Below the pieces are notes generated by a model. It had not been told where the DNA came from, made no database searches, and saw nothing but the letters and a program-made list of their open reading frames with translations. Positions 1 to 20,173 of a stretch of 36,870 nucleotides of DNA are shown piece after piece. Source of the DNA: an uncultured Anaerolineales bacterium. GTDB lineage: Bacteria; Chloroflexota; Anaerolineae; Anaerolineales; Villigracilaceae. Within the stretch, counting starts at the first letter, position 1. Each line of letters starts with the position of its first letter. The stretch lies in contig CAISEG010000003.1 in NCBI GenBank assembly GCA_903884265.1, forward strand, positions 1 to 36,870, written 5' to 3'. Position numbers and translations under genes: made by a program.

Positions 1-82
1 AAGCCAATCCCATCAAAACAAGCAAAACAACGACCAGCGGTTTGAGTTGGAAGCGCGGATGGACAGCAATTTTCACTTTCAT
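1..82 (-). CDS. Partial membrane protein, probable quinone-interacting (NrfD/PsrC-like) subunit
   Basis: Only the first 27 codons are in the window, reading leftward from an ATG at 82 and leaving the window at base 1. The peptide starts MKVKIAVHPRFQLKPL and runs into a hydrophobic stretch rich in V and L, so it begins a transmembrane helix. Its ATG overlaps the TGA of the ferredoxin gene (ATGA, 82-79), and a GGAGGAG Shine-Dalgarno lies just upstream inside that gene, so the two are translationally coupled. In polysulfide and thiosulfate reductase operons the gene after the ferredoxin subunit normally encodes the NrfD/PsrC quinol-oxidising anchor. That identity is inferred from context, because too little sequence is visible for a motif. 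A different short anchor protein is possible. Confidence 0.55.
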   Translation of the reverse strand, partial: MKVKIAVHPRFQLKPLVVVLLVLMGLA

Positions 83-870
83 TTTGTCTCCTCCGTTTGT
101 GGTTCGGGAGCTTCAAGCTTTTTAGCATCCGCTTCTTTTTTCTGGTTATATATATGCACGCCAGCCGCCAGACTGGTCAATACGGCACCCCAACCGAGGG
201 CAAAGGGAATGGTAAATCCCATCACCTCTTCGCTGACCTCCTTGACCGGGCGGGATGGAACCGCGGGCAGGCCCAGTTCTCCGAAGGGTGCGTGCGAAAG
301 GATCAGATAAGAGGTGCCGCCATTTTCGTTTTCCCCGTAGACATGATTGAGATAACGCACCGGTTGGGCAACCAGGCGGTTGTGGGCGTAATTCAGGAGT
401 TCATCCCGTTCCCCAAACATGAGCGCATCGGTCGGACAGGTGGCAACGCAGGCGGGCTTCAAGCCAATGTCGATGCGCTGGGTGCACATGGTGCATTTAT
501 CGATGAACGCACCGTCGATCAGGCCCTTGTCATAATCAAAGTGGGGCACGCCGAACGGGCAGGCGTTCATGCAGTAGCGGCAGCCGATGCACTTTTTAGA
601 GTCGTAAATCACCGGGCCATCTGCGCGCTTGCTATAAGCACCTACAGGGCAAGCCGACAGGCAATCCGGTTCGTTGCAGTGCATGCAGTGATAGACCATC
701 GAGGTGCGCTCCAGGTTTGGATACTCGCCTTTCAATCCAACCCCTGCCACCCAGATGCGTGTCTTATTCATGGGGATCTTGTTTTCGACACTGCAGGCCA
801 CCATGCAGGCCCGGCAGTCGATGCAGCGGGTGGCGTCGAACAGGAAGGTTTTATCTTTGATTTCAGGCAT
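79..870 (-). CDS. Ferredoxin-type iron-sulfur subunit of a molybdopterin oxidoreductase (PsrB/PhsB-like)
   Basis: This 263-residue electron-transfer subunit would carry electrons between a membrane quinol subunit and the molybdenum subunit encoded just upstream. Sixteen cysteines form four cluster-binding groups: C16/19/22/26, C62/65/70/74, C94/97/100/104 and C126/129/141/145. This is the pattern of the DmsB/PsrB/NrfC family with four [4Fe-4S] clusters. A hydrophobic segment near residues 216-240, followed by a charged tail, looks like a C-terminal membrane anchor, as in HybA/FdnH-type subunits, whereas simple PsrB proteins are soluble. It has no signal peptide, as expected for a subunit exported with a Tat-carrying partner. 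It follows the molybdenum gene by 15 bases and overlaps the next gene by 4. The substrate of the complex cannot be read from this subunit. Confidence 0.92.
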   Translation of the reverse strand: MPEIKDKTFLFDATRCIDCRACMVACSVENKIPMNKTRIWVAGVGLKGEYPNLERTSMVYHCMHCNEPDCLSACPVGAYSKRADGPVIYDSKKCIGCRYCMNACPFGVPHFDYDKGLIDGAFIDKCTMCTQRIDIGLKPACVATCPTDALMFGERDELLNYAHNRLVAQPVRYLNHVYGENENGGTSYLILSHAPFGELGLPAVPSRPVKEVSEEVMGFTIPFALGWGAVLTSLAAGVHIYNQKKEADAKKLEAPEPQTEETK

Positions 871-885
871 GATTCGACTCCCGTC

Positions 886-3060
886 TTAGATCTTCTTTAC
901 CGTTACAAAAGTCTGGCTGAGCGCCTGCCCGCCGCTGATGGGGTCTGTATAGGTCACATGCAGATCGGAGTCGCTGGCGCCGATGCCATAAGCTGTAGTC
1001 AGACCCTTGGAAAGATGCCCGTATCCGGGGGTCAGGTAGACACAATCCGGGCGGATGGCCTGCGTGGCTTCCAGCTTGATGTGGATGCTGCCGGCGCTGC
1101 TGGCTACTTCGACCAGGTCATAATCGGCCAGCCCCAGGGTCTGTGCGGTTTTCACATTCATCCACAGGCGCGGTTCATCCGAATACTTGTGCAGGAGCTG
1201 GTTGTTTTGGGTGCCGAACTGGGTGGACTGGGCTACCTTACCGGTCAGCAAGTAGAACTGCCCCGCCGGGGGCGCCGGAGGTTCCTCCCACTGCGGCACG
1301 GCGGCAAAGCCGCCCTGGTCGAGGGTGGTCGAAAACAATTCGATCTTGCTGCTGGGAGTGTTCCAGGCAGGTTCGGAAAAATCGGGGCCTTCGCCGGGTA
1401 ATTCCACGTAACCTTTCTGGCGGACCTGGTCGAGAGAGACTCCCAGGGGAGCCAGCTGCTGCTTGAGGTAATCCTCTTCGTCAGCATACTGGAAGAAGTC
1501 GCCCAGCCCCAGACGGGTGCCGAGTTCCTTGTAGATCCACAGGGAGGATTTCCCTTCCCCTTGCGCCTCGATCACGGGCTGCCGAATGAAGGCTTTGCTG
1601 CCAACGATATTGAGCGGGTCGTAGCGCTCCAGGTAGGAGGCTTCGGGGAGTACCACATCCGAGAACCAGGCGGTGTCGTTCATGAGAATGTCGATGGTGG
1701 CGATGAAATCCATCTTGCCGAATGCTTCCAGGGTCCGGCCGCGGTCCGGCAGTGACATGGCCGGATTCTGGCGGGAAATGAACCAGCCATGGGCCTGGTA
1801 AGGCGTGCCGCTTAAAACCGCTTCGCGCATTTCCTGGAACACACCGATCTTGAGCGGGACGAACGGGTATTTCCAGGGCACACCGTCAAGTCGTTGGGCC
1901 GAAACGCGCGGGTAAGCCGGCTGCGGCGGAGCGCCAAGCACTCCGCTCTCCTCCCCGGAGGCCGGAAACATCGCTACACCCCAGTTCCCCACCAGAGCAT
2001 TCAGGATGGCGATAGCCCGCTCGGTCTGGAAGGAGTTGACGAAATTGGAGGTCCGCCAGCCATTGTGGGCCAGCGCATAAGGCGCGGCGTGGGCAAACTC
2101 ACGTGCAATCCGCCGGATATTATCGGCTGGGATGTCAGTGATGGCAGCAGCCCACTCCGGAGTGTATTGAGGCATCGCGCTCGCCAGCTTGTCAAAACCG
2201 GAAGTATTGTTGTTTACTGATCTAAAACTATAAAGCCGCTCGCTGATGATGACATTGATCAACGCCAGGTGGAAGGCCAGATCGGTACCCGGTCGGATGG
2301 CCAGCCACTCGGAGGATTTCGCGGCCGTCTTGGTAAAACGAGGATCCAGGGTGACAACCTTGACACCTCGATCGATGGCCTGGCTCAGGGCGGAGGTCTC
2401 GGAGGTGGAAATGGCCTCCATTAGATTCCGCCCGGTCAGGATGATGTACTTGAGGTCGTCATACTTGCGGGCGGGTTCTTCCATGCCATACGTGACCAGG
2501 TTGGCCACGATCATGGCATTGAAACATAAACTGCGCTGGGTGCCATAGTTCGGCGAGCCATAGGCATTGAGCAGATTTTCGAATTGGAACTGGCTCAGGC
2601 AGTGCGTGGTCGAAAAGAGCATCGCTTCCGGGCCATATTTTTGCTGGATGTCGAGCATGTTTTGAGCCACCAGGTCCAGGGCTTCCTCCCAGGCGGCTTT
2701 GCGGAACAATCCCTCGCCACGTTTGCCAACCCGGATGAGGGGGGTCAGCACCCGGTCGGGGTCGTAAGTGTTCATCAGGCCGGATTGACCGCGTGGACAC
2801 AGCTTGCCATTGGAATGGGGATGTTCGGGGTTGCCTTCCAGCTTGACCACGCGTCCCCCATCAACTTTTGCCAGCAGACCGCAGCGCCAGACGCACATTT
2901 CGCACATGCTGGGGATATATCCGCTGTTTGTGGCATCCAGCAATCCATTTACCCGGGCAGCTTCAGCCACCTGGGGCGGTATGAACTGCCCGATGAGCAC
3001 GGCGCCAACTGTTGCGCCACCGACCTTGAGAAAATCGCGGCGGGATATTGTAGATGGCAT
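886..3060 (-). CDS. Tat-exported molybdopterin catalytic subunit, polysulfide/thiosulfate reductase type (PsrA/PhsA-like)
   Basis: The 724-residue protein is a DMSO-reductase superfamily catalytic subunit. The start is placed at the ATG at 3060, because a GGAG ribosome site lies before it and the N-terminus then shows a Tat signal (SRRDFLK, residues 6-12, plus a hydrophobic stretch ending near VAEAA). The upstream in-frame extension lacks these features. Cysteines 53, 56, 60 and 88 bind the N-terminal [4Fe-4S] cluster. Cys179, in RSLCFNA, sits where the family places its molybdenum ligand and points to the Cys-ligated branch (PsrA, PhsA and relatives) and away from Ser (DMSO reductase) or SeCys forms. 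Flanking sulfur-transporter and cytochrome genes support a sulfur oxyanion or polysulfide substrate. Tetrathionate is also possible. It would act outside the cytoplasmic membrane. Confidence 0.9.
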   Translation of the reverse strand: MPSTISRRDFLKVGGATVGAVLIGQFIPPQVAEAARVNGLLDATNSGYIPSMCEMCVWRCGLLAKVDGGRVVKLEGNPEHPHSNGKLCPRGQSGLMNTYDPDRVLTPLIRVGKRGEGLFRKAAWEEALDLVAQNMLDIQQKYGPEAMLFSTTHCLSQFQFENLLNAYGSPNYGTQRSLCFNAMIVANLVTYGMEEPARKYDDLKYIILTGRNLMEAISTSETSALSQAIDRGVKVVTLDPRFTKTAAKSSEWLAIRPGTDLAFHLALINVIISERLYSFRSVNNNTSGFDKLASAMPQYTPEWAAAITDIPADNIRRIAREFAHAAPYALAHNGWRTSNFVNSFQTERAIAILNALVGNWGVAMFPASGEESGVLGAPPQPAYPRVSAQRLDGVPWKYPFVPLKIGVFQEMREAVLSGTPYQAHGWFISRQNPAMSLPDRGRTLEAFGKMDFIATIDILMNDTAWFSDVVLPEASYLERYDPLNIVGSKAFIRQPVIEAQGEGKSSLWIYKELGTRLGLGDFFQYADEEDYLKQQLAPLGVSLDQVRQKGYVELPGEGPDFSEPAWNTPSSKIELFSTTLDQGGFAAVPQWEEPPAPPAGQFYLLTGKVAQSTQFGTQNNQLLHKYSDEPRLWMNVKTAQTLGLADYDLVEVASSAGSIHIKLEATQAIRPDCVYLTPGYGHLSKGLTTAYGIGASDSDLHVTYTDPISGGQALSQTFVTVKKI

Positions 3061-3078
3061 AACTATCTCCAGATAATT

Positions 3079-3118
3079 GCCGTCCATGCGAGGCAGGAAC
3101 ACCCCTCGCATGGACGGC
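3079..3118 (-). other. Perfect 15-bp intergenic hairpin before the molybdenum subunit
   Basis: Bases 3079-3093 (GCCGTCCATGCGAGG) and 3104-3118 are exact reverse complements separated by a 10-base loop. The hairpin lies between the YedE-like stop (3131) and the molybdenum-subunit start (3060), about 18 bases upstream of that start codon on the minus strand. No T-run follows it on the minus strand, so it is not a standard intrinsic terminator. It could protect the upstream mRNA end, act as a processing site, or modulate translation of the catalytic subunit. The pairing is seen directly; the role is inferred. Confidence 0.75.
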
Positions 3119-3130
3119 ATCGGGTTAATA

Positions 3131-3694
3131 CTAATCCTTCTTTTCCTTGCGATGCATACCCACACGATCGATCAAATAGAAGAGCACTAATGCCATCAAG
3201 GCAAAAACAAAAACTGCCAGGTATGGGCTGATGTGCCACAGGTCGGGCAGAACAACATTGCCATAATTTCCAATCGCCTTGAGCTGGGGCATGAAGCTCG
3301 AATAGGTCAGCCCAAAAAGTACCGCGCCGGTCAGGAAGCCGAGCAGGCCGGGGACGATATAATCCCATTTGCCTTCACCTGCGCCAGCCATGGCCGTACC
3401 CGGGCAGAAACCAGCCAGGGCCATGCCCACGCCGAAGACCAGGCCGCCGACCAGGTTCCCAAGGACATAAGTCTCGGGAATGGCCGGGAAGGTGATAACG
3501 CCCAGCTCTCGTAAAGGATACACACCGATCATGGTGACCACCAGGGCGGTCATCATGAACTTCAAAACGGTAAAATCAGTCAGGCGGAACTGGTTGACAA
3601 TTTTATGGTATTTGGTCAAACCGGCTTTGTTGAGGGCAAAGCCGAACAAAACGCCGAGGAAAAGAGCGATAACAATCATTTTTACGGATAGCAT
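3131..3694 (-). CDS. YeeE/YedE family sulfur-compound transporter, C-terminal-type half
   Basis: This 187-residue membrane protein is one of a split pair of YeeE/YedE (DUF395) transporters. The signature GFCPGT motif is at residues 95-100, with the conserved Cys97 that relays thiosulfate or another sulfur species in characterised YeeE proteins. Several hydrophobic segments span the length (residues 5-22, 44-60, 78-95, 112-130 and 158-175). The start is supported by AGGAGG five bases before the ATG. It lies 12 bases after the companion half at 3707-4231, and together they equal one full-length transporter, as in PmpA/PmpB-like pairs. Its place between the cytochrome and the molybdenum reductase suggests it supplies or removes a sulfur substrate or product. 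The transported species is not determinable here. Confidence 0.88.
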   Translation of the reverse strand: MLSVKMIVIALFLGVLFGFALNKAGLTKYHKIVNQFRLTDFTVLKFMMTALVVTMIGVYPLRELGVITFPAIPETYVLGNLVGGLVFGVGMALAGFCPGTAMAGAGEGKWDYIVPGLLGFLTGAVLFGLTYSSFMPQLKAIGNYGNVVLPDLWHISPYLAVFVFALMALVLFYLIDRVGMHRKEKKD

Positions 3695-3706
3695 GGCATC
3701 CTCCTT

Positions 3707-4231
3707 TTAATATTTCTTTCCATAGACGATCAGGGCTGTAACAATCCCCGAGGCGAACATTCCGCCAATGAACAGGAAGGCCGCCGGAGCGAGCAGCATG
3801 CCGCCCGAAATGGCCAGACCGCTGGTGCATCCGCCTGCGACCCCGGCGGCGAATTCCACGATGATCCCGCCCACGAAGAGCAGCAGCCAGCGCTTCCAGG
3901 TCTGCTTGCCGTAGGCCTTCTTCCACTGTTCACTGTCCATCGTGCGAAATTTGAATGTGCCGCTGGAAAGTGCTCCCAGCATCCCGCCGAAGAAAATACC
4001 GACCAGCAGGATGACCGGATAGGTGATCTCCGCTTTCATCATAAAATTGAAGTACATGTTATTGGGGCTGATTGCCTTGCCGATATAAGCTGCCAGGTTC
4101 TCAAAACCTCCCGATGCGCCTAGGAGCGCGTGGGCCAGAACAACGGTGAGGATGCCGACGATGCCGAGCAGGGCGCCCGCAACGTAGGGTGACCACAATT
4201 CCTTGTTGATTTGTTGCTTGAGCCAGTTCAT
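3707..4231 (-). CDS. YeeE/YedE family sulfur-compound transporter, N-terminal-type half
   Basis: This 174-residue membrane protein is the companion half of the YeeE/YedE pair. The start at 4231 (MNWLKQQINK) is chosen because GGAGAAG precedes it at good spacing, whereas the longer in-frame extension is polar and has no ribosome site. The family motif AGGCTSG, with Cys135, is present at about residues 132-138. Hydrophobic segments fall near residues 17-38, 70-90, 115-135 and 145-168. The gene follows the cytochrome by 31 bases and precedes the other half by 12 bases. In E. coli YeeE, conserved cysteines pass thiosulfate through the membrane, so Cys135 here and Cys97 of the partner are the likely equivalents. 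Thiosulfate import is inferred from the family. Confidence 0.87.
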   Translation of the reverse strand: MNWLKQQINKELWSPYVAGALLGIVGILTVVLAHALLGASGGFENLAAYIGKAISPNNMYFNFMMKAEITYPVILLVGIFFGGMLGALSSGTFKFRTMDSEQWKKAYGKQTWKRWLLLFVGGIIVEFAAGVAGGCTSGLAISGGMLLAPAAFLFIGGMFASGIVTALIVYGKKY

Positions 4232-4262
4232 ATCTTCTCCTTTTCTGAAATTGGTTGAAAGA

Positions 4263-5105
4263 TTATTCTTTTTGGTCTTCAGGGGCTTGATCTGCAGCCG
4301 GTTCTTCATGGATGAGCTTGTCGATCGAAGCCAGCAGGTCAGCAGCCACCTGGGGTTTGGCCAGGATATTTTTCAGGATGCGACGGGAAGCGGGCTTTAA
4401 ACGACTGACATCCGAAAGCATTTCCACCACGTCAGCAGGATACTTTTTCTGGACAGGAACGCGCTTTGGATCCTCAAAAGAGATGTTGACCAGGCCCTCT
4501 CTTTTCAGGACGAAGAAGCCGCCTCCGAGGACGATCAACGCTAAAATGACGATCAGGATGATGTTGCCGATGTTGGTGGGAGTTTTGCCGAGGGCCACGG
4601 CATCGTATCTCTGGGAGTAATCCACCATGTCTGCAGCCGGGACAACTACTGCTGGAGCGGCCTCTGTCGTTATCGGGGCAGTGGACGAGGCAGGCTGGCT
4701 GGTCGCCGCCGCTGTCGCGCTTGCGCCGGTGCCAATCTGCTGGCCGAGGGTGGTTGCATAGATCTGAGCTTTTGCCTGGGTGTCGGAGGGGTGGCAGCTT
4801 TTACAGCTGGCGTTAATATCCGCCAACGGAGCCACCATCCCGGTGTGGGCAGCGACCTTATCAGTGGCCTGGTTGTTTCCGGCGTGACACAGGTAGCAAA
4901 AATCGCCAAAGTTGTGCTGGGTGTGCCAGGCGGTACCGTCAGTATTGACAGGCTTCTGGGCCTGCGTTTCGTGGCAGTTCTTACAGGATGAAGCCTGTGA
5001 TCCGCATTGGGCCTTCGCTGGCGTGGCGGTCATCAGGAAAACGCTGGCCACTACGAGCAGTATGCCAAGGGCCACGAACAAGAAAGTGATCCTTTTTTGA
5101 TTCAT
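4263..5105 (-). CDS. Membrane-anchored triheme cytochrome c with a cytosolic tail
   Basis: The 280-residue protein starts at 5105, where GAGGTG precedes the ATG and a Sec signal follows (residues 1-33, ending AKA). Three heme c sites are visible: CKNCH (41-45), CYLCH (70-74) and CKSCH (101-105). A low-complexity Ala/Thr/Ser/Pro linker (about 115-160) leads to a transmembrane helix at 180-200. A charged tail of about 80 residues follows and, by topology, would be in the cytoplasm. The tail resembles no domain I recognise. It is first after the ArsR gene and upstream of the transporter and reductase genes, so it probably passes electrons to or from the exported molybdenum enzyme. Extra His residues in the heme domain (H61, H64 and H87) could be second axial ligands. 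Confidence 0.85.
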   Translation of the reverse strand: MNQKRITFLFVALGILLVVASVFLMTATPAKAQCGSQASSCKNCHETQAQKPVNTDGTAWHTQHNFGDFCYLCHAGNNQATDKVAAHTGMVAPLADINASCKSCHPSDTQAKAQIYATTLGQQIGTGASATAAATSQPASSTAPITTEAAPAVVVPAADMVDYSQRYDAVALGKTPTNIGNIILIVILALIVLGGGFFVLKREGLVNISFEDPKRVPVQKKYPADVVEMLSDVSRLKPASRRILKNILAKPQVAADLLASIDKLIHEEPAADQAPEDQKE

Positions 5106-5148
5106 TTGCACCTCGTTCGAATGGATTGAAAAAAAATAATATTGGGGT

Positions 5149-5490
5149 TTATGCAGGGATGAATTCATCCATGAGATCCGCGTGATGCTGGATCTGCTCG
5201 CGCAGGACACTGCGCAGTAAATCCAGGGCTTCAATCACACGGTGGTCGGTCAGTTCATACTGGACAGAGGTTCCCAGTCGGGTGGCTTTTACCAAGCCGC
5301 CCTCCCGCAACACTTTAAGGTGGCGCGATACGGTCGACTGGGGGACTTCCAGTTCCTGGGTCAATTCAGTGACATTACGGGGCTGATCTGAAAGGGCATA
5401 CAGCAGGATGAGCCGGGTTGAATCTGCCAGAGCTGAGCACAGATCTGCATGGAGGTGGGCAATTTCTTGGGTGAGGGATGAAGTTATCAT
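5149..5490 (-). CDS. ArsR-family transcriptional repressor
   Basis: This 113-residue protein is a winged-helix regulator of the ArsR/SmtB type. The helix-turn-helix covers about residues 37-62 (NVTELTQELEVPQSTVSRHL) and the wing about 65-80 (LVKATRLGTSVQYEL). It lacks the CxC metal-binding pair of ArsR and also the two-cysteine persulfide switch of BigR/SqrR. The only cysteine is Cys18, so the sensing chemistry is unclear. It is the first gene of the leftward sulfur operon, 43 bases before the cytochrome, so it most likely represses that operon together with itself. The upstream spacer (5491-5580) is AT-rich with TATA-like boxes and carries a weak copy of the Crp-type motif seen at 6000-6014. 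A sulfur-related inducer is inferred only from context. Confidence 0.9.
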   Translation of the reverse strand: MITSSLTQEIAHLHADLCSALADSTRLILLYALSDQPRNVTELTQELEVPQSTVSRHLKVLREGGLVKATRLGTSVQYELTDHRVIEALDLLRSVLREQIQHHADLMDEFIPA

Positions 5491-5518
5491 ATGACCTTAT
5501 TCGGATAATCGCATATTC

Positions 5519-5573: not shown

Positions 5574-5636
5574 ATAAAACGGGTGTAATGTCATACCGAG
5601 CGCGAAGGGAAATGCAACTACTAAACCATAGAAGAA

Positions 5637-5664
5637 AGAGCCCCTGGTTTTAGCCAGGGGCTCT
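5637..5664 (-). terminator. Intrinsic terminator after the DUF2892-like gene
   Basis: AGAGCCCCTGG (5637-5647) pairs perfectly with 5654-5664 around a six-base loop. On the minus strand the stem is followed by a T-rich tract (TTTCTTCT). It lies between the DUF2892-like stop (5706) and the arsR promoter, so it insulates the sulfur operon from the upstream transcript. Confidence 0.8.
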
Positions 5665-5705
5665 TCTGATTTGAGACAAGTGTGAAAAGGGAAAGTCCCA
5701 AGACA

Positions 5706-7592: not shown

Positions 7593-8052
7593 GCATCATG
7601 GGTAAAAAACTGGTTCTTGCCGAGGTGGGGTTATTACCCATGACCTTCCTTGCGATCTGCGCTTGGGGGAGGATCTCAGCAAAGGAGCCCAGAATTACAG
7701 GCATAAGCCGGTTTTGCTCCATCATCTCGATAAGAACTTATTCATTATATGGGGGTTAAGTTATCAAATCCCTATCCATTCTCTATCAAACCGACGGCCT
7801 ATAATATTTGAGTGTATAATGCCGACAAGTTTGATGAAATTTGACGATGCTCATCGCAGCCTAATGCCCGCTTCCTCAGACTTCTTTCAGGAAACCGGTG
7901 AAGGGGAAAAGTTTAGAACGGTTCGTCAATATTGGCCTGGTGGTTGCAATTCGCCAATCCGTTTGATCATTTGATTAGAAACACCTGTTCTCGAACCGCT
8001 TTGAAAACAGCCGGAGAGCAGACTTTATTAATGTTACATTTTGGAGGTTGCA
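7593..8052 (+). other. Gene-poor spacer with a possible hemL-like remnant
   Basis: This 460-base stretch separates the divergent aldo/keto reductase and radical SAM genes. It holds two TATAAT boxes (7800-7805 and 7815-7820). A short plus-strand reading frame begins with the ATG at 7819 and ends at 7974. Its last residues include YWPGGCNSPIRLI, which resembles the N-terminal PGGVNSPVRAF motif of glutamate-1-semialdehyde aminotransferase. Nothing further of that enzyme follows, so a decayed fragment or chance resemblance is more likely than a gene. Confidence 0.3.
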
Positions 8053-9534
8053 ATGAAGATCCTGTTAATCTACCCGGAATTTCCCGATACATTTTGGAGT
8101 TTCAAGCATGCCCTGAAATTTATCCGAAAGAAGGCCTCCACCCCACCACTTGGTTTGCTGACGGTAGCTGCCATGCTGCCGGCGGAATGGGAAAAGCGCG
8201 TCGTGGATCTGAACGTAAGAACGCTTAAAGATAAGGATCTAGCCTGGGCCGATTATGCTTTCGTGAGTGCGATGGTCGTTCAGAAGGAATCCACCCATCA
8301 GGTGATCGGCCGCTGTAAAGCCGCCGGGTTGACAGTGGTGGCCGGGGGACCGCTCTTCACTGCCGAATACGAGCAGTTCCCGGATGTGGCGCATTTCGTT
8401 CTGAACGAGGCCGAGATGACTCTGGCGCCATTCTTACGGGATCTTGAGCGGGGCCAGGCTCAACGCATCTACACCTCAGATGAATTCCCCGACATCCAGC
8501 AAACGCCTGCCCCACTCTGGGAACTGGCGGACCGGAGCCGTTACGCCACCATGTCGATCCAGTATTCGCGCGGCTGCCCCTTTGACTGTGAGTTCTGCAA
8601 TATCACCACGCTATTTGGACACCTACCGCGGGTCAAGACATCCTCACAAATTATCCGCGAATTGGACGGATTGTACCAGCTTGGCTGGCGCGAGCCGGTC
8701 TTTTTTGTTGACGATAACCTGATCGGCAACAAAAAACATCTCCGGGAGGATCTGCTTCCGGCTTTGATCGAATGGCGGAAGGGCAAGAAAGGCATGCCTT
8801 TCAATACCGAGATCTCGATCAATATTGCCGACGATGACACTTTAATGTATATGATGACCCAGGCTGGTTTCGACACTGTTTTTATCGGGGTTGAGACACC
8901 AGACGACGACAGTCTGGCTGAGTGCAACAAGAAGCAAAACCTGCATCGCGACCTGGTGGCGGATGTAAAGCGTATCCAGCGCGCCGGGCTACAGGTCCAG
9001 GGCGGTTTCATCATCGGATTTGACAATGATACCCCGTCCACTTTCCAACGACAGATCGATTTCATTCAGAAAAGCGGAATCGTGACTGCCATGGTCGGGC
9101 TGTTGCAGGCTCCCGTTGGAACCCGGCTCTATAAACGTATGGAAAAGGACAGGCGGCTGGTCGGATCGTTCTCAGGCGATAACGTGGACGGGGCGACGAA
9201 TATCATTCCGAAGGAAATGAGTATTGATGTGCTCGAGAAGGGTTACCGGGCTGTGGTGAGGACCCTGTATACCCCCAAGAATTATTATGCACGCGTTAAA
9301 ACCTTTCTGAAAGAATATAAAGCACCCAAGATCACAATCCCTTTGAATGGGGAGTATATCCGGGCATTTTTTCGTTCTGTCCTGCGGTTGGGGATTATTG
9401 GCAAGGAACGCGTCCAATATTGGAAGCTTCTTTTCTGGACGCTTTTCCGCCGGCCGGAACTCTTTGCGCTGGCGATCACATTCGCGATCTATGGGTATCA
9501 CTTCCGCCAGGTAATGGACTTGCACCTGCTCTGA
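8053..9534 (+). CDS. B12-binding-domain radical SAM protein (HpnP-like, DUF4070 type)
   Basis: This 493-residue enzyme belongs to the class B radical SAM group, which uses S-adenosylmethionine plus cobalamin, often to methylate unactivated carbons. The start is the ATG after GGAGG (8043-8047). An N-terminal B12-binding Rossmann-like domain spans about residues 1-140 and contains AGGP near 97-100. The [4Fe-4S] radical SAM motif is CPFDCEFC (C175, C179, C182), followed by VFFVDDN and GGFIIGFD segments. The C-terminal region matches the DUF4070 extension found in HpnP (hopanoid 2-methylase) and its many paralogues. The opening YPEFPDTFWSFKHALKFI is typical of that group. No hopanoid genes are nearby, so lipid methylation is only one possibility. 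It seems to be a single-gene unit. Confidence 0.88.
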   Translation: MKILLIYPEFPDTFWSFKHALKFIRKKASTPPLGLLTVAAMLPAEWEKRVVDLNVRTLKDKDLAWADYAFVSAMVVQKESTHQVIGRCKAAGLTVVAGGPLFTAEYEQFPDVAHFVLNEAEMTLAPFLRDLERGQAQRIYTSDEFPDIQQTPAPLWELADRSRYATMSIQYSRGCPFDCEFCNITTLFGHLPRVKTSSQIIRELDGLYQLGWREPVFFVDDNLIGNKKHLREDLLPALIEWRKGKKGMPFNTEISINIADDDTLMYMMTQAGFDTVFIGVETPDDDSLAECNKKQNLHRDLVADVKRIQRAGLQVQGGFIIGFDNDTPSTFQRQIDFIQKSGIVTAMVGLLQAPVGTRLYKRMEKDRRLVGSFSGDNVDGATNIIPKEMSIDVLEKGYRAVVRTLYTPKNYYARVKTFLKEYKAPKITIPLNGEYIRAFFRSVLRLGIIGKERVQYWKLLFWTLFRRPELFALAITFAIYGYHFRQVMDLHLL

Positions 9535-10905: not shown

Positions 10906-12294
10906 ATGACCACTCTTTTGATCAAGAATGCCACAGTTCTTGTCACCATGGACGACCGCCAGCGGGAGATTCCCGAGGGTGGTCTTTTTATACGGGACGG
11001 GTTCATCGAACAAGTCAGCCCGACAGATGAACTGCCGCAGGCGGCGGACGAAGTGCTCGACCTGCGCGGCCACCTACTCCTGCCAGGGCTGGTCAACACG
11101 CACCATCATTTCTACCAGACTCTCACGCGCGCTGTGCCGGCCGCGCAGAACGCCAACCTGTTCCACTGGCTCAAGACGCTCTATCCCATCTGGGCGCGCC
11201 TGACCCCCGACGACATTTTTATTTCGACCCAGACTGCCCTGGCGGAACTGGCGCTTTCAGGTTGCACTACAGCCGCCGATCACCTGTACCTGTTCCCGAA
11301 CGGTTCCCGTCTCGACGATGAGATCACCGCGGCACAGGAGATGGGGATGCGCGTCCAGGCCAGCCGCGGCTCAATGAGCCTGGGTGAATCGAACGGCGGG
11401 CTCCCGCCTGACTCGGTGGTGGACACGGAAGAGGCCATCCTGAAGGATTCTCAGCGCCTGATCCAAAGATACCACGACCCAAAGGCGGGGGCCTTTGTAC
11501 AGATCGTGCTGGCGCCTTGCTCGCCCTTCTCGGTGAGTGGTGAGTTGATGAAGCAGTCGGCAGCGCTGGCGCGCGAAACCGGCGTGCACCTGCACACACA
11601 TCTGGCGGAGACCGAAGACGAGCAGGAGTTCTGCCTGCAGAAATTTGGTTACCGTCCCGTGCCATACATGCAGTCGGTGGACTGGGTGGGGGAGGACGTC
11701 TGGTTCGCGCACGCAGTATACGTGGACAACGATGAAGTAAAGACCTTTGCCAGGCACGGCTGCGGCGTAGCACATTGTCCCAGCTCGAACATGCGCCTGG
11801 CTTCTGGGATCGCCCCGGTCAAAGAGTACCTGGCGGCGGGTGTGAAGGTAGGCTTGGGTGTGGACGGGTCGGCTTCGAACGACAGTTCGCACATGCTCGG
11901 TGAAGCGCGCCAGGCAATGCTTTTATCCAGACTACGGGAAGGGATTAGCGGGTTCTCCCTTTCGAACGATCCAGATCGCAAGCTAATAACGGCGCGCGAG
12001 GTCTTGAAGCTGGCAACGCGCGGCGGGGCGGCGGTGCTGGGACGCGGCGATATTGGTAGTCTCGAGCCTGGGAAATGCGCTGATTTCTTCGCGATAGATC
12101 TGAACCGCCTGGAATACGCCGGGGCGCTGCACGACCCTGTGGCTGCGGCGGTATTCTGCCACCCGGTGCGCGCCGACTACACCTATGTCGGCGGCAGGCC
12201 GGTGGTGCGAGCAGGGCGACTGGTGAACGTGGATGAAACCAAGCTGGTGGAAAAGCACAACCGGGCAGCCAAACGCTTGCTGGAGAACCAATGA
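10906..12294 (+). CDS. 8-oxoguanine deaminase (amidohydrolase superfamily)
   Basis: This 462-residue zinc amidohydrolase matches the cluster once called hydroxydechloroatrazine ethylaminohydrolase and later shown, for some members, to deaminate 8-oxoguanine to urate. Visible signatures are NTHHHFYQTLTRAV (metal ligands His66 and His68), HLAETEDE around the third histidine, CPSSNMRL and GVDGSASND with the catalytic Asp. Its length matches the family. It is the first gene of the purine operon, directly behind the GntR-type operator, and overlaps the next gene by four bases (ATGA at 12291). In this operon its product would join urate made by xanthine dehydrogenase. Related SsnA and guanine deaminases are alternatives, but the TLTRAVPAAQ and CSPFSVS segments favour the 8-oxoguanine branch. 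Confidence 0.9.
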   Translation: MTTLLIKNATVLVTMDDRQREIPEGGLFIRDGFIEQVSPTDELPQAADEVLDLRGHLLLPGLVNTHHHFYQTLTRAVPAAQNANLFHWLKTLYPIWARLTPDDIFISTQTALAELALSGCTTAADHLYLFPNGSRLDDEITAAQEMGMRVQASRGSMSLGESNGGLPPDSVVDTEEAILKDSQRLIQRYHDPKAGAFVQIVLAPCSPFSVSGELMKQSAALARETGVHLHTHLAETEDEQEFCLQKFGYRPVPYMQSVDWVGEDVWFAHAVYVDNDEVKTFARHGCGVAHCPSSNMRLASGIAPVKEYLAAGVKVGLGVDGSASNDSSHMLGEARQAMLLSRLREGISGFSLSNDPDRKLITAREVLKLATRGGAAVLGRGDIGSLEPGKCADFFAIDLNRLEYAGALHDPVAAAVFCHPVRADYTYVGGRPVVRAGRLVNVDETKLVEKHNRAAKRLLENQ

Positions 12295-12791
12295 CCGCGG
12301 TGGAAGAGATGCTGCTCGAAAAATATCTAAAGCTCCCTGACCAACTGGAGGCTGCCATTGCCGGGCTGGATGAGGACCAGCTCGACCTGAATCTTGGCAA
12401 GGGCTGGTCGATCCGGCAGTACGTGCATCACACCGTCGAAGGTGAGGTGATGTGGCAACTATTCCTGCGGGCCATTCTGGGCCAGGATGGGATCGAGTTC
12501 CCGATCCAATGGTATTTTGCCATTTCCCAGGATGAATGGGCCGAGCGTTGGGCCTCCGGGAAGAGGCTTGTTGGCCCGACCCTGGCGCTCTTCCGCGGCA
12601 GCACTGCCAGCCTGGCCGAACTGCTGCACAACATGCCGGCCAAAGCCTGGGATCATTTTGGGCGTGTGACTTGGCCAGGCAGCGACAAGGAAACCCACCT
12701 GACGGTAAGGGACATCGTCCGGATGCACCTTGGCCACACAGAGCATCACACTGCTGATATCCAGGCCATCCGGAAGGCGCACGATGTATAA
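12291..12791 (+). CDS. DinB/YfiT-family putative metalloenzyme
   Basis: This 166-residue protein has the DinB four-helix-bundle layout with a histidine metal site: H46/H47 in YVHHTVEGE and the pair H149 and H153 in HLGHTEHHTADI. Members of this superfamily include thiol-S-transferases and many uncharacterised hydrolases. The start overlaps the stop of the 8-oxoguanine deaminase, so they are translationally coupled. No function in purine breakdown is established for this family. Conserved coupling would suggest a hydrolytic or repair role, but that is speculation. The confidence applies to the family call, not to the function. Confidence 0.88.
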   Translation: MTAVEEMLLEKYLKLPDQLEAAIAGLDEDQLDLNLGKGWSIRQYVHHTVEGEVMWQLFLRAILGQDGIEFPIQWYFAISQDEWAERWASGKRLVGPTLALFRGSTASLAELLHNMPAKAWDHFGRVTWPGSDKETHLTVRDIVRMHLGHTEHHTADIQAIRKAHDV

Positions 12792-12861
12792 ATGCAAGAA
12801 TCTCATGCTTAAGGTGCGGAAGCTTCTCGAAAGACTAAAGTCGTTACAACAATAGGATAGC

Positions 12862-13173
12862 ATGTCGGATATCTGGGTGCTAATCATTTTCGGCTGGCCG
12901 GCAATCCTTCTTTCGTTGGTGACTTCAGTGATCGGAGTGCTGAAAAAATGGCCTTGGATAGTGATGACTGCCGGGGTGGTAGCCATGCCATTCAGCCTGT
13001 ATTTCAGCGGATATGCAATTTTCTATTACACCCCTTTCCTGCTGCCGTTCTTCCTGTTTGGTGCAGCCTGGGCCGTGAGGGCCAAACGCAAGATCCTACC
13101 CTGGATCCTGCTGGTCCCCCTGACCGGCTTTGCTATCATCCTAGCAATTCTTGTGCATACCCAAAATGGATAA
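12862..13173 (+). CDS. Small multi-pass membrane protein, function unknown
   Basis: This 103-residue protein is almost wholly hydrophobic, with helices near residues 4-24, 31-50, 52-71 and 80-98 separated by short basic loops (KKW, RAKRK). I recognise no family. A weak AGGA lies before the ATG. It ends eight bases before adenine deaminase and is read in the same direction, so it belongs to the operon. A small accessory transport or membrane role is possible but unsupported. Confidence 0.65.
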   Translation: MSDIWVLIIFGWPAILLSLVTSVIGVLKKWPWIVMTAGVVAMPFSLYFSGYAIFYYTPFLLPFFLFGAAWAVRAKRKILPWILLVPLTGFAIILAILVHTQNG

Positions 13174-13181
13174 ATAAAACC

Positions 13182-14972
13182 ATGCCTTTACCCATCCAAC
13201 TGACCGCCAATTTAATCGACGTGGCCATGGGCCGCAAACCGGCCGACCTGGTGTTACGCAATGGTATTTGGGTATGCGTGCAATCGGGCGAGTTTATCCC
13301 CGATACAGACGTGGCTATCAAGGACGGGCGCATTGCCTACGTTGGCCCAGACGCTTCGCACACTATCACGAAGGACACGCGGGTGGTCAACGCCGAAGGC
13401 AAGTACCTAGTACCGGGCCTGATCGACGGGCACACACACGTCGAATCGGGCATGTTGACGGTTACTGAGTTCGTGCGGGCAGTGCTACCGCACGGCACGA
13501 CCGGGATGGTCATCGACCCGCACGAGATCGCCAACGTCTTCGGGCTAAAGGGCGTCAAGCTGATGGCGGACGAAGCCGCCCGCCAGCCCATTCATATCTG
13601 GGTGGAAGTACCCTCCTGCGTGCCATCCTCGCCCGCGCTGGAGACAGCCGGAGCCGAAATCACACTTGCGGATGTGGAAGAAGCCATCCAGTGGGACAAC
13701 GTGATTGGCCTGGGCGAAATGATGAACTACACAGGTGTGGCGGCGGGGGATCCAAAGATGCTGGCTGAAATGGAGACGACCCGGCGAGCCGGGAAGGTGA
13801 TCAGCGGGCACTATGCCTCGCTGGACCTCGGGCCGGCGTTCCATGCTTACGTGGCTGGCGGCCCCGAAGACGACCACGAGGGCACCCGCCTCGAAGACGC
13901 GGTGGTGCGCGTCCGCCAGGGGATGTGGGCCATGCTGCGCTACAGCTCAGCCTGGCACGACGTAGCCGCCCAGTTACCGGCCATCACCAAGCTCGGAATG
14001 GACGCGCGGCGCTTCATCCTCTGCACCGATGATTCGCATGCCGGGACGCTGGTTAACGATGGGCACATGGACCGCATCTTGCGGCATGCCATCGCTGAAG
14101 GCCTCGCTCCCATGCTCGCGGTACAGATGGCTACGCTCAACCCGGCGGAACATTTTGGCGTCAGCCGCGAGGTGGGCATGATCGCCCCTGGGCGTTGGGC
14201 CGATATCCTGTTGGTGAAAGACCTGAAGGATTTCCATGCTGAACTGGTGCTTGTGCGCGGGCAGCAGGCAGCCGAGAATGGCAAGCTGCGCATCGACCTA
14301 CCGAAGGTGGAATACCCAGCCTGGGCGACGCAGTCCATCCATCTCAAGCATGCCTTGTCTCGGAATGATTTCCGCCTGCGAACTGCATTGAAAGCCAACC
14401 AGGTCAGCTGTAACGTCATTGGCATCATCGAGAACCAGGCGCCCACGAAACTTTTAAAGCTTGCCGTATCAGTCAAAGACGGTGAGCTCCAACTTCCGGC
14501 GGGGCTGGCCAAGCTGGCGCTGGTCGAACGGCATGCGAAGACCGGTGTGATACAGCTCGGACTGGTGAGAGGCTTCGGTCTCAGCGAAGGATGCGCCATC
14601 GCTTCCACCGTGGCTCACGACTGTCACCACATGCTGGTGATCGGGACGAGTGATGAAGATATGGCCACCGCTGCCAACAAGCTGGCTGAAACCGGCGGCG
14701 GGCAGGTGGTGGTGAAAAATGGCAAGGTGATCGGCCTGGTGGAATTAACCATCGGCGGGTTGATGTCTACCGAGCGGGCTGACGCGGTAGCTAAAAAGGC
14801 CAATACCATTCTGGAAGGCTTCCGCGCCAGCGGATGTATCATCAACAACCCGAATATGACCATGAGCCTGCTGGCTCTGCCTGTCATCCCGGAACTGCGC
14901 CTCACCGACAAGGGCCTGGTGGACGTCGCCCAAGTCAAAATCAGGCCGGTCATCGAAGGCCCAGCGGCATAG
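13182..14972 (+). CDS. ade: Adenine deaminase
   Basis: The 596-residue amidohydrolase converts adenine to hypoxanthine and ammonia. The start at 13182 (MPLPIQLTANLIDVAMG) matches the family N-terminus; a longer in-frame extension would overlap the membrane-protein gene and is rejected. Signatures are IDGHTHVES (His84, His86), IDPHEIANVFG, GLGEMMNY, CTDDSHAG with Asp283/Asp284, and the C-terminal domain with HDCHHM and a GGLMS segment. Its size fits bacterial Ade (about 560-600 residues). It is followed after nine bases by the GntR regulator. In this operon it feeds hypoxanthine to the xanthine dehydrogenase at 24203-27884. Confidence 0.95.
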   Translation: MPLPIQLTANLIDVAMGRKPADLVLRNGIWVCVQSGEFIPDTDVAIKDGRIAYVGPDASHTITKDTRVVNAEGKYLVPGLIDGHTHVESGMLTVTEFVRAVLPHGTTGMVIDPHEIANVFGLKGVKLMADEAARQPIHIWVEVPSCVPSSPALETAGAEITLADVEEAIQWDNVIGLGEMMNYTGVAAGDPKMLAEMETTRRAGKVISGHYASLDLGPAFHAYVAGGPEDDHEGTRLEDAVVRVRQGMWAMLRYSSAWHDVAAQLPAITKLGMDARRFILCTDDSHAGTLVNDGHMDRILRHAIAEGLAPMLAVQMATLNPAEHFGVSREVGMIAPGRWADILLVKDLKDFHAELVLVRGQQAAENGKLRIDLPKVEYPAWATQSIHLKHALSRNDFRLRTALKANQVSCNVIGIIENQAPTKLLKLAVSVKDGELQLPAGLAKLALVERHAKTGVIQLGLVRGFGLSEGCAIASTVAHDCHHMLVIGTSDEDMATAANKLAETGGGQVVVKNGKVIGLVELTIGGLMSTERADAVAKKANTILEGFRASGCIINNPNMTMSLLALPVIPELRLTDKGLVDVAQVKIRPVIEGPAA

Positions 14973-14981
14973 GAGTATGAT

Positions 14982-15695
14982 ATGAGTCCTTATCCATTCC
15001 GGCGCTTGCAAATTGAACTGGCAGAACTGATCCATTCGCTACCGGCTGAAGCCCGCCTGCCTTCGGAACCACTCCTGGCGAAGCAGATGGGTGTCTCACG
15101 TGCCACGCTGCGGGAGGCCATGCGCACCTTCGAGGGGCAGGGGTTAATCCGCCGCCGCCAGGGGGTTGGCACCTTCGTGGCTCCCAAGGTGCCAGTGATG
15201 GATACTGGCTTGGAGGTGCTGGAGAGTCTCGAAACAATCGCCCTGCGTTCCGGCATGACGGTCCGGATGGGCGAACTGCAGGTGGAGAAGGTTGCAGCCG
15301 ACGAAAGCCTGGCGAAGCTACTGAACCTGGAGGTGGAGGCGGAACTGACGTGCGTGACGCGCATCATCTTTACCGAACAACGCCCGGTCGCTTACCTGGT
15401 GGACACCCTACCGTTGGACATCCTGGGGGTAGAAGAGCTCGAGTCCGGTTTCACCGGTTCGGTACTGGACCTGTTACTGAAGCGCGGTGCCCCAAAGTTG
15501 ACCCAGTCGCGCACCGAGATCAAGGCCATCGGGGCTACTTCGGAAGTGGCGCGCGCCCTGCAGATCCAGCGCGACGCGGTCCTGCTCCACTTCGCAGCCC
15601 AGCTCTATGATGAGGACAGCCGCGTGGTGGACTATTCAGATAGTTATTTCCTGCCCGGTTATTTCCGCTTTCACGTGGTGAGACGGGTAGGTTAA
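14982..15695 (+). CDS. GntR-family (HutC/UTRA type) transcriptional regulator
   Basis: The 237-residue protein has an N-terminal winged helix (about residues 5-68), including LPSEPLLAKQMGVSRATLRE and the wing QGLIRRRQGVGTFV. Its UTRA ligand domain (about 85-235) ends YFRFHVVRR, as is usual for HutC-type members. AGGAG precedes the ATG by six bases. It is embedded between adenine deaminase and the carbamoyltransferase. The best target is the palindrome GTTGTCAGACAAC at 10872 and its inverse copy at 36681. No copy lies directly before this gene, so it would be autoregulated through the operon promoter. The effector is probably a purine or a breakdown product (inference). Confidence 0.92.
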   Translation: MSPYPFRRLQIELAELIHSLPAEARLPSEPLLAKQMGVSRATLREAMRTFEGQGLIRRRQGVGTFVAPKVPVMDTGLEVLESLETIALRSGMTVRMGELQVEKVAADESLAKLLNLEVEAELTCVTRIIFTEQRPVAYLVDTLPLDILGVEELESGFTGSVLDLLLKRGAPKLTQSRTEIKAIGATSEVARALQIQRDAVLLHFAAQLYDEDSRVVDYSDSYFLPGYFRFHVVRRVG

Positions 15696-15774
15696 TGTAA
15701 AACGTAAGTCGTAAAGCGCCATTGGCGCCTTATGATCTACGAAACCATTTTCTCTAATCACGGAGGTTTTTAAT

Positions 15775-16731
15775 ATGCGTAGTTTTGCTGGCCGGGACAT
15801 CCTGTCCCTCAAAGATTTCGAAAGGCAAGAATTCTTTCATGTTTTCGATGTAGCGGCTGAACTCGAGCCGATTGCCGTCAGCCGCCGTAATAGCGACCTT
15901 CTGGCTGAAAAAACCCTGGTGACGGCTTTCTACCAGCCATCCACCCGCACACGCTTAGCACACGAAGCGGCCATGCACCGCCTGGGCGGCCATGTGACCG
16001 GTTTCGCGGATGCCAAGATGACGCGCGCCGGTGACTTCTACCAGGAGTCGATCAAGGATACGGTAAAGATGCTGGAGTTCTATGGCGATGTAATTGTGAT
16101 GCGCCACTTCACCCAGGGCGCGCCAGCCGAAGCAGCCAAGTGGGCTTCGATCCCGATCATCAACGGCGGCGACGGCTGGGGCGAACACCCAACCCAGATC
16201 CTGACCGACTTGTACACCGTGCTGAAGGAAAAAGGCACCATCGACGGTCTTACCTGGCTGGCAGTGGGCGATATGCGCATGCGCACGATGCATTCACTGG
16301 GTTATGCGCTCAGCCAATTTGACTGCCCGATCACATTCGTTTCCCCGCCGGACATGTCGTTGACCGAGGAGTTTAAAGCCGAGCTCAAGCAATTCAGCGT
16401 CAATTTCCGTGAAGTGGAACACGTGGAGCAGGCCATAGCTGAAGCGGATGTCATCCTGGTGGAGCCGGTCGTCCAGCCGGACTATACCAAGAGCCGTGAC
16501 GAACGCGCCGGGAAAGACGTGGGCATGACCCCTGCCAACTACAAGATCACGCGCGAATTGCTCGAGACGAAGGCCAAGTCGGATGCCATTCTGCTGCACT
16601 CCCTGCCGCGCATGGACGAGGTGCCGACGGATGTGGATATCACCCGCTGGTCACGCTACTGGCAGGAAGCCTTTAACGGCGTGGTCATGCGCATGGCGCT
16701 GCTGGCATTGGTTCTGGGAGCAATGGAATAG
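15775..16731 (+). CDS. ATCase-like carbamoyltransferase with altered amino-acid-substrate site
   Basis: The 318-residue protein looks like the aspartate carbamoyltransferase catalytic chain. The carbamoyl-phosphate site is intact: STRTR (56-60), Arg110 in VMRH, and HPTQ (138-141). Arg170, in MRMRTMHSL, matches E. coli Arg167. However, the loop holding aspartate-binding Lys84 in E. coli reads TRAGDFYQES here with no lysine, and the segment equal to TRVQKER (Arg229, Gln231) reads VEPVVQP. The HPLPR motif is HSLPR (275-279). A substrate other than aspartate is therefore likely. GGAGG supports the start. Position before a second carbamoyltransferase and carbamate kinase suggests catabolic use: phosphorolysis of a carbamoylated purine breakdown product to carbamoyl phosphate. 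Calling it pyrB would be premature. Confidence 0.85.
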   Translation: MRSFAGRDILSLKDFERQEFFHVFDVAAELEPIAVSRRNSDLLAEKTLVTAFYQPSTRTRLAHEAAMHRLGGHVTGFADAKMTRAGDFYQESIKDTVKMLEFYGDVIVMRHFTQGAPAEAAKWASIPIINGGDGWGEHPTQILTDLYTVLKEKGTIDGLTWLAVGDMRMRTMHSLGYALSQFDCPITFVSPPDMSLTEEFKAELKQFSVNFREVEHVEQAIAEADVILVEPVVQPDYTKSRDERAGKDVGMTPANYKITRELLETKAKSDAILLHSLPRMDEVPTDVDITRWSRYWQEAFNGVVMRMALLALVLGAME

Positions 16732-16791
16732 AATTATTAGTAGGAGCACGAAACATTGTGTCCCTATTAGTCAGATTTCGGAGATAAAAAT

Positions 16792-17772
16792 ATGCAAACC
16801 TTTTTACATGGCCGTGACTTGATCGGCGACTTGGATTTTACGAAAGAAGAAGTTGAAACCGTCCTGGACGTGGCATTCGACCTGAAGCGCAAGCGCGCCT
16901 TGAACGAGCCACATCCTTACCTGCGTGACAAGGTGCTGGCGATGCTATTCTTCTTCTCGTCCACCCGCACGCGCGGTTCGTTCGAAGCTGGCATGGCCCA
17001 ATTGGGCGGTCACGGTGCGTTCATCGAAAGCAAGTCCACACAGATCTCACACGGCGACACACCCAAAGAGATCGGGGAAATTTTCGGCCGGTACTACGAT
17101 GGCATCGCCATCCGCCACGTTGACTGGGGCATCGGCAACAGCTATCTCAACGCGGTCGCCAAGGCCTCGCGGGTCCCGGTGCTCAACATGCAATGCGACA
17201 TCTACCATCCCTTCCAATGTCTGGCCGACCTGATGACCATCGTTGAGAAAAAAGGCCGCGACCTGCGGCGTAAGAAGATGGTGGTTTCGTGGGCCTACGC
17301 GGCTTCGTACCAGAAGCCGATGTCGGTGCCGCAGTCGCTGATCCTGCAAATGCCGCGCTTTGGCCTGGACGTGGTACTGGCGCACCCGCCCGAATTCAGG
17401 TTGATGCCTGAGATCATGGAGCAGGCCCAGGAACAGGCCCGCAAGTTCGGAGCCGGTTTTGAGGTCACGGATGACATGGAAGCCGCTTTCAAGGATGCGG
17501 ACATCGTCTATGCCAAATCTTGGGGCGCAATGGTCCACACTCCTGACCCGGAAGAGGGCGCCAAGATCATCAAGAAGTATTCGCACTGGATCACCGACGA
17601 AAAGAAGATGAAGCTTGCCAAACCGGATGCCATCTACATGCACCCGCTGCCAGCCGACCGCAACATCGAGGTCACGGATGGTGTGATGGACGGGCCACAG
17701 TCGGTGGTGTACGATGAGGCTGAGAACCGCATGCATGCCCAGAAGGCTGTTATGGCCCTGACGATGGGCTAG
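16792..17772 (+). CDS. Knotted-group carbamoyltransferase, N-acetylornithine-carbamoyltransferase/YgeW-like
   Basis: The 326-residue protein has STRTR (57-61), HPFQ (139-142) and a C-terminal half strikingly like acetylornithine carbamoyltransferase: VYAKSWGA, then DGVMDGP and DEAENRMHAQKAVMA. The proline-containing segment WAYAASYQKPMSVPQS (167-182) resembles the loop of the knotted AOTCase/SOTCase/YgeW group. The usual HCLP substrate motif is HPLP (284-287), so the second substrate probably differs from ornithine derivatives. GGAG precedes the ATG. YgeW sits in urate-degradation clusters of enteric and gut anaerobes beside carbamate kinase. This gene is 12 bases before carbamate kinase and in the same purine setting, so a comparable role is the favoured inference. 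YgeW is longer (about 396 residues). Confidence 0.82.
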   Translation: MQTFLHGRDLIGDLDFTKEEVETVLDVAFDLKRKRALNEPHPYLRDKVLAMLFFFSSTRTRGSFEAGMAQLGGHGAFIESKSTQISHGDTPKEIGEIFGRYYDGIAIRHVDWGIGNSYLNAVAKASRVPVLNMQCDIYHPFQCLADLMTIVEKKGRDLRRKKMVVSWAYAASYQKPMSVPQSLILQMPRFGLDVVLAHPPEFRLMPEIMEQAQEQARKFGAGFEVTDDMEAAFKDADIVYAKSWGAMVHTPDPEEGAKIIKKYSHWITDEKKMKLAKPDAIYMHPLPADRNIEVTDGVMDGPQSVVYDEAENRMHAQKAVMALTMG

Positions 17773-17784
17773 GAGATGGAAGGC

Positions 17785-18738: not shown

Positions 18739-18800
18739 TTTTTAAGATTGGCTGTCGTGATAGAATGGATTTACACGAATCGCCTTGGTATAAGCAATGG

Positions 18801-18844
18801 AAGGAGGTGAGTTGCGGATTAAGATGATCATAGGCTCTACCTAA
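18801..18844 (+). other. Possible leader mini-ORF with consensus Shine-Dalgarno
   Basis: AAGGAGGTGA (18801-18810) is a full match to the 16S anti-Shine-Dalgarno complement, the best in the window. It is followed after one base by TTG at 18812 and an 11-codon frame ending TAA at 18844. The BMP lipoprotein starts 45 bases later with its own GAGGAGG. A translated leader peptide or a ribosome-standby site is possible; chance cannot be excluded. Confidence 0.3.
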
Positions 18845-18889
18845 TTAATAATCAACTCTTTCTATCTTAATTCTGAGGAGGATTACTGT

Positions 18890-20149: not shown

Positions 20150-20173
20150 GCTTCCATCAACAACAAGTAAATG

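Follow-up and report, generated by a model that had tools for sequence, protein, structure and literature searches.

The window analysed here is a whole contig of 36,870 bases (CAISEG010000003.1) from the metagenome-assembled genome (MAG) of an uncultured Anaerolineales bacterium of the family Villigracilaceae; the genome is 70.9% complete and comprises 194 contigs. One end of the window carries an operon in which the gene of an ArsR-family repressor precedes those of a triheme cytochrome, a YeeE/YedE-type transporter split into two halves, and a molybdenum (Mo) enzyme of the Psr/Phs family with its iron-sulfur (Fe-S) and membrane partners. The gene content and order are conserved among related genomes, the catalytic subunit belongs with the Psr/Phs enzymes, the cysteine motifs of the transporter are retained, and in the relatives the codon of Cys97 in the N-terminal transporter half is exchanged between cysteine and TGA. 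Judging from sequence, we lean slightly towards reading the operon as an ArsR-controlled unit for an outward-facing sulfur-compound:menaquinone oxidoreductase working in the oxidative direction, accompanied by its own YeeE transporter and the triheme cytochrome.

Operon organisation and conservation

The six genes run from 5490 to 79 on the minus strand (Table 1), and their intergenic gaps of 43, 31, 12, 70 and 15 bp are consistent with a single transcript. The original prediction of an ArsR-led operon joining a split YeeE to a molybdenum enzyme is upheld: all six genes fall on one strand within 79-5490, and re-reading the window bears out exactly the positions given for Cys135 and Cys97 as well as the three haem motifs. 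Both Pfam and NCBIfam bear out the protein families that it named. Among the operon proteins, Pfam matches over cut-off were obtained for Sulf_transp (both YeeE halves), Molybdopterin, Molydop_binding, Fer4_11 and HTH_5. The remainder of the operon was sought on the other contigs of the window genome (MAG 71% complete), none of which matched.

Table 1. Operon genes and the candidate operator in the window
Feature	Position	Strand	Remarks
Candidate operator-like core CGNNTATNCG	5502..5511	-	just upstream of arsR
ArsR/SmtB-family repressor	5149..5490	-	113 aa; one Cys (Cys18)
Membrane-anchored triheme c cytochrome	4263..5105	-	280 aa; CxxCH at residues 41, 70, 101; hydrophobic helix at both termini
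YeeE/YedE-type transporter, C-terminal half	3707..4231	-	174 aa; GGC-TSG motif; only Cys is Cys135
YeeE/YedE-type transporter, N-terminal half	3131..3694	-	187 aa; GFC-PGT motif; only Cys is Cys97
Psr/Phs-family molybdopterin catalytic subunit	886..3060	-	724 aa; SRRDFLK Tat motif; Cys179
Fe-S subunit, HmcB/HybA-like	79..870	-	263 aa; 16 Cys; C-terminal hydrophobic helix
NrfD/PsrC-type quinone-binding membrane subunit, start only	1..82	-	27 residues, then contig end

Within the family, a match to the catalytic subunit at 1e-60 or better occurs in 56 of 150 genomes; in 44 of the 150 the identity is at least 70%. Across 301 genomes of the phylum there are six carriers, all within the 18 that belong to the window's family, and the best match outside it reaches 40% identity. 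That 40%-identical, Psr-type enzyme is found in another family of the same class (loci L121 and L122, genomes G345 and G409). A plasmid search gave no match reaching 60% identity. Scanning one genome per species, at a reach limited to close relatives, yielded 55 loci, all from Chloroflexota, for which counts are given as present/absent with enough DNA/cut by a contig end. The catalytic gene is accompanied by the Fe-S subunit (49/0/6), the triheme cytochrome (48/1/6), the N-terminal (48/3/4) and C-terminal (46/3/6) YeeE halves, NrfD (44/2/9) and ArsR (35/9/11), and it is followed by multihaem c (30/5/20), cytochrome b (27/11/17) and Rieske (25/9/21) genes. The recurrence of both order and identity in dozens of genomes indicates that the gene set is not a product of chance. 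The combination had been called uncommon, which holds for descriptions in print, as far as we found them, and fails for its occurrence in Anaerolineae.

All 45 rows of the triheme cytochrome profile contain three CxxCH motifs; Pfam matches to this protein, a weak Cytochrome_C7 included, all stay below cut-off, and its structure model is too poor for use (mean predicted local distance difference test, pLDDT, 58.8). The closest models for the Fe-S subunit, neither of them named in the original prediction, are HmcB (221.7 bits, cut-off 420) and HybA (185.8 bits, cut-off 263). The 27-residue NrfD fragment shares 63% identity (E 1e-4) with the NrfD of locus L032, which matches PF03916 with 100.7 bits; in that locus the NrfD, cytochrome b, Rieske and FmdE assignments are all supported by Pfam. 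The multihaem c proteins of the relatives have 8 or 9 CxxCH motifs. By eye, the Fe-S and NrfD proteins of L049 (10179-12163) look like another subtype than those of L032 and L075, next to the same catalytic subunit. Four loci (L039, L052, L064 and L081) have a nearby module on the opposite strand with multihaem c and FmdE-like genes, joined by Rieske in L039, L052 and L064 and by ArsR in L039, L052 and L081; in L039, L052 and L064 the module replaces the usual downstream genes.

The catalytic subunit

The catalytic subunit is assigned by sequence to the sulfur-handling Psr/Phs clade. Its best NCBIfam model is PhsA (563 bits), ahead of Fdh (254), ArrA (146) and TtrA (75); the PhsA score lies below the cut-off of 694, and the protein is therefore not filed as PhsA itself. 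The Thermus Psr (2vpw, labelled thiosulfate reductase) is matched over the full length with 424 bits, against 129 bits for ArrA. In a tree of 37 rows, built without Wolinella PsrA, SrdA, SreA or SoeA, the subunit joins Thermus Psr, the Chloroflexota Psr of L092 and E. coli PhsA with support of 99/97, and the window group sits on a long branch of its own (0.84). The PsrA/PhsA-like identity given in the original prediction thus stands on both the tree and the best model, and a place among enzymes for a non-sulfur substrate such as arsenate, which would have spoken against it, did not emerge. ArrA and a Sulfuricella enzyme, which we take to be ArxA from its gene order and general knowledge, branch elsewhere, and an enzyme of the arsenate/arsenite type is rejected on the model scores together with the tree. 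A search for ArrA over the 301 Chloroflexota genomes gave nothing, and as no control matched either, nothing is concluded from it.

Cys179 aligns with Thermus residue 173, the Mo-ligand column, and its codon is TGC or TGT, never TGA, in all 88 loci with the motif. Two stretches, PG[WH]R and GW[FI]xSR[QH]N, are common to the window enzyme and E. coli PhsA and are not found in Thermus Psr. The Tat (twin-arginine translocation) signal profile PF10518 reaches 22.5 bits, just below its cut-off of 22.7, and the SRRDFLK motif is present. On account of this putative Tat-type signal the enzyme is probably extracytoplasmic.

The split transporter

The two YeeE halves divide one PF04143 domain between them, in reverse order. 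The C-terminal half covers profile positions 168-308 (54.9 bits, cut-off 27) and the N-terminal half positions 10-150 (79.5 bits), so that together they span 10-308. In PMC11073785, C293, C91 and C22 of Spirochaeta thermophila YeeE (StYeeE) are the three conserved cysteines on the thiosulfate path. The window has two relay cysteines, one in each half. The N-terminal half aligns with StYeeE chains in phmmer (E 1e-5), placing Cys97 on Cys91; the equivalence of Cys135 to C293 follows from profile order, a direct alignment having been sought and none found. All 72 loci that have the motif encode the C-terminal cysteine by TGC or TGT, never by TGA. Neither half reaches the TsuA model (38.8 and 24.2 bits against a cut-off of 645), and the N-terminal half scores nearly alike for TsuA (38.8 bits) and for the selenium-related YedE/FdhT (38.2 bits). 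The structure model of the C-terminal half is too poor for use (mean pLDDT 53.9), and the operon genes include none for the partner YeeD/TusA.

Predicted selenocysteine at the Cys97 codon of relatives

In many relatives the reading frame of the N-terminal half looked broken. At the Cys97 position, the 48 relatives with the motif have TGA (22), TGC (25) or TGT (1) and nothing else; the remaining seven of the 55 loci are accounted for by contigs that start too late (four) and by the lack of YeeE (three). In these 22 loci (L032 at 7635, L034 at 3469, L036 at 7671, L069 at 7680 and 18 more) the TGA always falls on the same codon, the reading frame continues undisturbed before and after it, and the predicted motif is U-PGT-C. 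An alternative genetic code for TGA is ruled out: the code is standard, since TGA also terminates many genes in the same loci. Selenocysteine (Sec) appears to occupy the Cys97 site in about half of the relatives, a predicted selenoprotein form, while the window itself has the cysteine form. Ordinary gene calling would split the N-terminal half in two in roughly half of the loci.

Of the 27 Sec forms 25, and of the 27 Cys forms 4, have a complete hairpin that resembles the selenocysteine insertion sequence (SECIS) and is held in register with the codon; shuffling of synonymous codons yields a mean of 7.6 and a maximum of 13 of 27. Its loop, GGU, GGC or GGUC, lies 18-19 nt past the TGA, in agreement with the rules for bacterial SECIS elements (bSECIS) set out in PMC13188914. 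Only this registered hairpin separates the two forms. A loose SECIS scan does so poorly: the median best energies are -14.9 and -13.1 (p 0.007), and a fold of some kind is present in 26 of 27 Cys forms as well. Rfam gave no match at the Sec codon of L034. On the PsrA tree we count about 11 Cys/Sec exchanges, and among 10 independent pairs, hairpin and Sec go together in a mean of 7.5 and run counter to each other in a mean of 0.2 (median p 0.016, with values from 0.008 to 0.125). A cysteine stands four residues past Sec in all 27 Sec forms. As a specific companion of Sec this residue was rejected, being present in 19 of 19 Sec rows and 16 of 24 Cys rows, with a median p of 0.25 over independent pairs. 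A tRNA-Sec of at least 61 bits was detected in 13 of 14 Sec-form genomes (missing from G125) and 7 of 8 Cys-form genomes (missing from G000), and SelB exceeds its cut-off in 137 of the 150 family genomes.

A YeeE/YedE selenoprotein (PF04143, WP_012471001.1) is listed with the motif GUxSG in PMC13188914. Compared by motif, this corresponds to the C-terminal site, GGC-TSG, and the Sec site in the N-terminal half consequently looks new.

The regulator and its upstream region

ArsR matches PF01022 with 65 bits and the generic NCBIfam model HTH_metalloreg with 79.7 (cut-off 55); it stays below the cut-offs of BigR (44.3 against 155) and TsoR (58 against 115). Its relatives share one cysteine column, occupied in 37 of 39 aligned proteins, the next-best columns reaching 6 and 5 of 39. 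The candidate operator core CGNNTATNCG recurs in 15 of 34 upstream regions, where mononucleotide shuffles give 0.24 on average and 2 at most. Between a YgaP-like gene and arsR, the window has a 12-bp inverted repeat without mismatches around a loop of 6 nt (5636-5665), terminator-like in look, for which a terminator scan made no call. Genes of large rhodanese-domain proteins are found near the operon in L049 (2233-3849), L050, L053 and L073; those in L049 and L073 adjoin a further ArsR gene.

Proposed function and alternatives

In the scheme we prefer, the Mo enzyme outside the membrane would interconvert thiosulfate or polysulfide with sulfide (and sulfite). From the catalytic subunit, electrons would reach menaquinone by way of the Fe-S subunit and NrfD; in loci with the downstream genes they would then go on to a Rieske/cytochrome b/multihaem c complex, which is the oxidative direction. 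The cargo of the YeeE pair may be a sulfur anion or sulfane sulfur, which would cross the membrane, presumably inwards, by a relay through Cys135 and Cys97; this sulfur species could also be what the ArsR repressor responds to. The coupling of sulfur transport to extracellular sulfur redox chemistry, as put forward in the original prediction, is borne out in part: the Psr/Phs clade, the putative Tat-type signal and the YeeE halves as conserved neighbours (46 C-terminal and 48 N-terminal loci, three absences each) speak for it, and the link between transport and enzyme is one that we infer. Menaquinone-linked Psr/Phs enzymes may run in both directions. That a Rieske/b/c set, which oxidises quinol, lies behind the enzyme speaks for oxidation without proving it, and we consider oxidation somewhat likelier than reduction. 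A sulfur substrate is much likelier than any other; we count in favour of the scheme that a rhodanese lipoprotein gene lies near the closest enzyme outside the family (G409, L122).

A number of observations weigh against it. The regulator lacks the two-cysteine pair of the known sulfane-sulfur sensors (BigR/SqrR/SoxR), the branching among PhsA, Psr and the window group is weak (82/48), and cytochrome b is absent from 11 loci with enough DNA. L047, L050 and L053 lack YeeE, and the gene next ahead of the catalytic one is that of the triheme cytochrome. None of three pointers to direction is significantly associated with the operon in the 150 family genomes: haem-copper oxidase (COX1) is found in 35 of 44 carriers and 93 of 106 others, the YeeE partner TusA in 17 of 44 and 56 of 106, and DsrA in 3 of 44 and 2 of 106. 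In the window's genus COX1 is matched in one of seven carriers, which makes the proposed electron sink uncertain there.

The six carriers of that genus without a COX1 match would suit a respiratory reductase, whose NrfD would oxidise menaquinol while thiosulfate or polysulfide is reduced outside and YeeE takes up leftover thiosulfate or sulfane sulfur for assimilation or signalling. The nearest named relatives (2vpw and PhsA) are reductases, and the two sequence stretches shared with E. coli PhsA to the exclusion of Thermus Psr point the same way. Most loci with enough DNA nevertheless have the Rieske/cytochrome b/multihaem c genes as well, whose products oxidise quinol too and would compete with such an enzyme; reckoned from menaquinol, thiosulfate reduction is uphill and sulfide oxidation downhill. 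We think a reductase possible, if rather unlikely. Slightly more doubtful is an arrangement of two separate modules co-regulated by sulfur, with YeeE and the cytochrome serving stress response or assimilation and the Mo enzyme serving energy metabolism. The loci that retain cytochrome and enzyme alone imply that the enzyme does not absolutely depend on YeeE, and the missing link to TusA fits as well; yet these three loci form one clade, hence represent one loss, and in 46-48 loci the YeeE halves directly precede the catalytic gene.

An enzyme for a non-sulfur oxyanion (arsenate, arsenite, selenate or antimonate), with ArsR as a metalloid sensor and YeeE merely supplying sulfur or selenium, seems quite improbable. 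The match of ArsR to a generic metalloregulator, the near-equal scores of the N-terminal YeeE half for thiosulfate and selenium transporters, and the ability of Psr-like enzymes such as SrdA to use other oxyanions would agree with it, but ArrA and the presumed ArxA occupy another part of the tree and ArrA scores far below PhsA.

Returning to the sulfur oxidoreductase, a bolder extension would make YeeE a redox-active translocase, forming a covalent S-S or Se-S intermediate with its sulfur cargo through a thiol or selenol at the Cys97 site (backed by the +4 cysteine in the Sec forms) and exchanging electrons with the cytochrome and the Psr/Phs enzyme. We hold this to be speculative and on the whole unlikely. 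If true, Sec would be able to stand in for each of the family's two relay cysteines, one as in the published GUxSG motif and the other in the N-terminal half.

Implications and neighbouring genes

A sulfur transporter and a molybdenum sulfur enzyme within one conserved operon suggest a possible role in sulfur cycling for Anaerolineae, whose carriers are known mostly from metagenomes. The repeated exchange of Cys and Sec at the site of StYeeE Cys91 amounts to a natural mutagenesis experiment and suggests that the residue performs thiol/selenol chemistry. Such chemistry bears on the mechanism of YeeE, that is, on whether thiosulfate is relayed by hydrogen bonds or sulfur is transferred covalently.

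Elsewhere in the window, the plus-strand genes at 10906-27884 encode an amidohydrolase, an adenine deaminase, a GntR regulator, a Bmp-type ABC transporter and a xanthine-dehydrogenase-type Mo protein, which looks like purine catabolism. A B12-binding radical SAM protein with DUF4070 is encoded at 8041-9534.

Comparison with known systems

The literature searched gave no description of the operon or of the Sec site in the N-terminal half, and YeeE is absent from the main text of PMC2398784, PMC12013277 and PMC5029168. With PsrABC and PhsABC the operon shares the catalytic clade, a putative Tat-type signal, the Cys ligand column and the Fe-S and NrfD partners; it differs in an Fe-S subunit of the HmcB/HybA type with a membrane helix, in the triheme cytochrome, split YeeE and ArsR in front, and in the cytochrome b, multihaem c and Rieske genes behind. 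YeeE/TsuA of Spirochaeta thermophila and E. coli has the PF04143 domain and the two relay cysteines kept here as Cys135 and Cys97. Unlike it, the operon has split genes with the C-terminal half first, no third cysteine and no YeeD/TusA, and about half of the relatives carry TGA (Sec) in place of Cys97.

An ArsR repressor adjoining YeeE-family sulfur transporters is also a feature of BigR-type ArsR with PmpAB and of Hyphomicrobium SoxT1A/SoxT1B, as described in PMC12423496; the regulator of the present operon has one conserved cysteine instead of the Cys50/Cys116 pair, and the operon is without Sox, sHdr or persulfide dioxygenase genes. The YTD cluster (yedE, tusA, dsrE) of sulfur disproportionators (PMC8780430, PMC13047784) likewise places a YeeE-type transporter in genomes that encode Psr/Phs, whereas here TusA and DsrE are missing and YeeE shares a single operon with the Mo enzyme. 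Finally, the selenoprotein of the YeeE/YedE family in PMC13188914 has Sec in the same type of transporter, but at the motif that fits the C-terminal GGC-TSG, while the Sec of the present loci lies at U-PGT-C in the N-terminal half.

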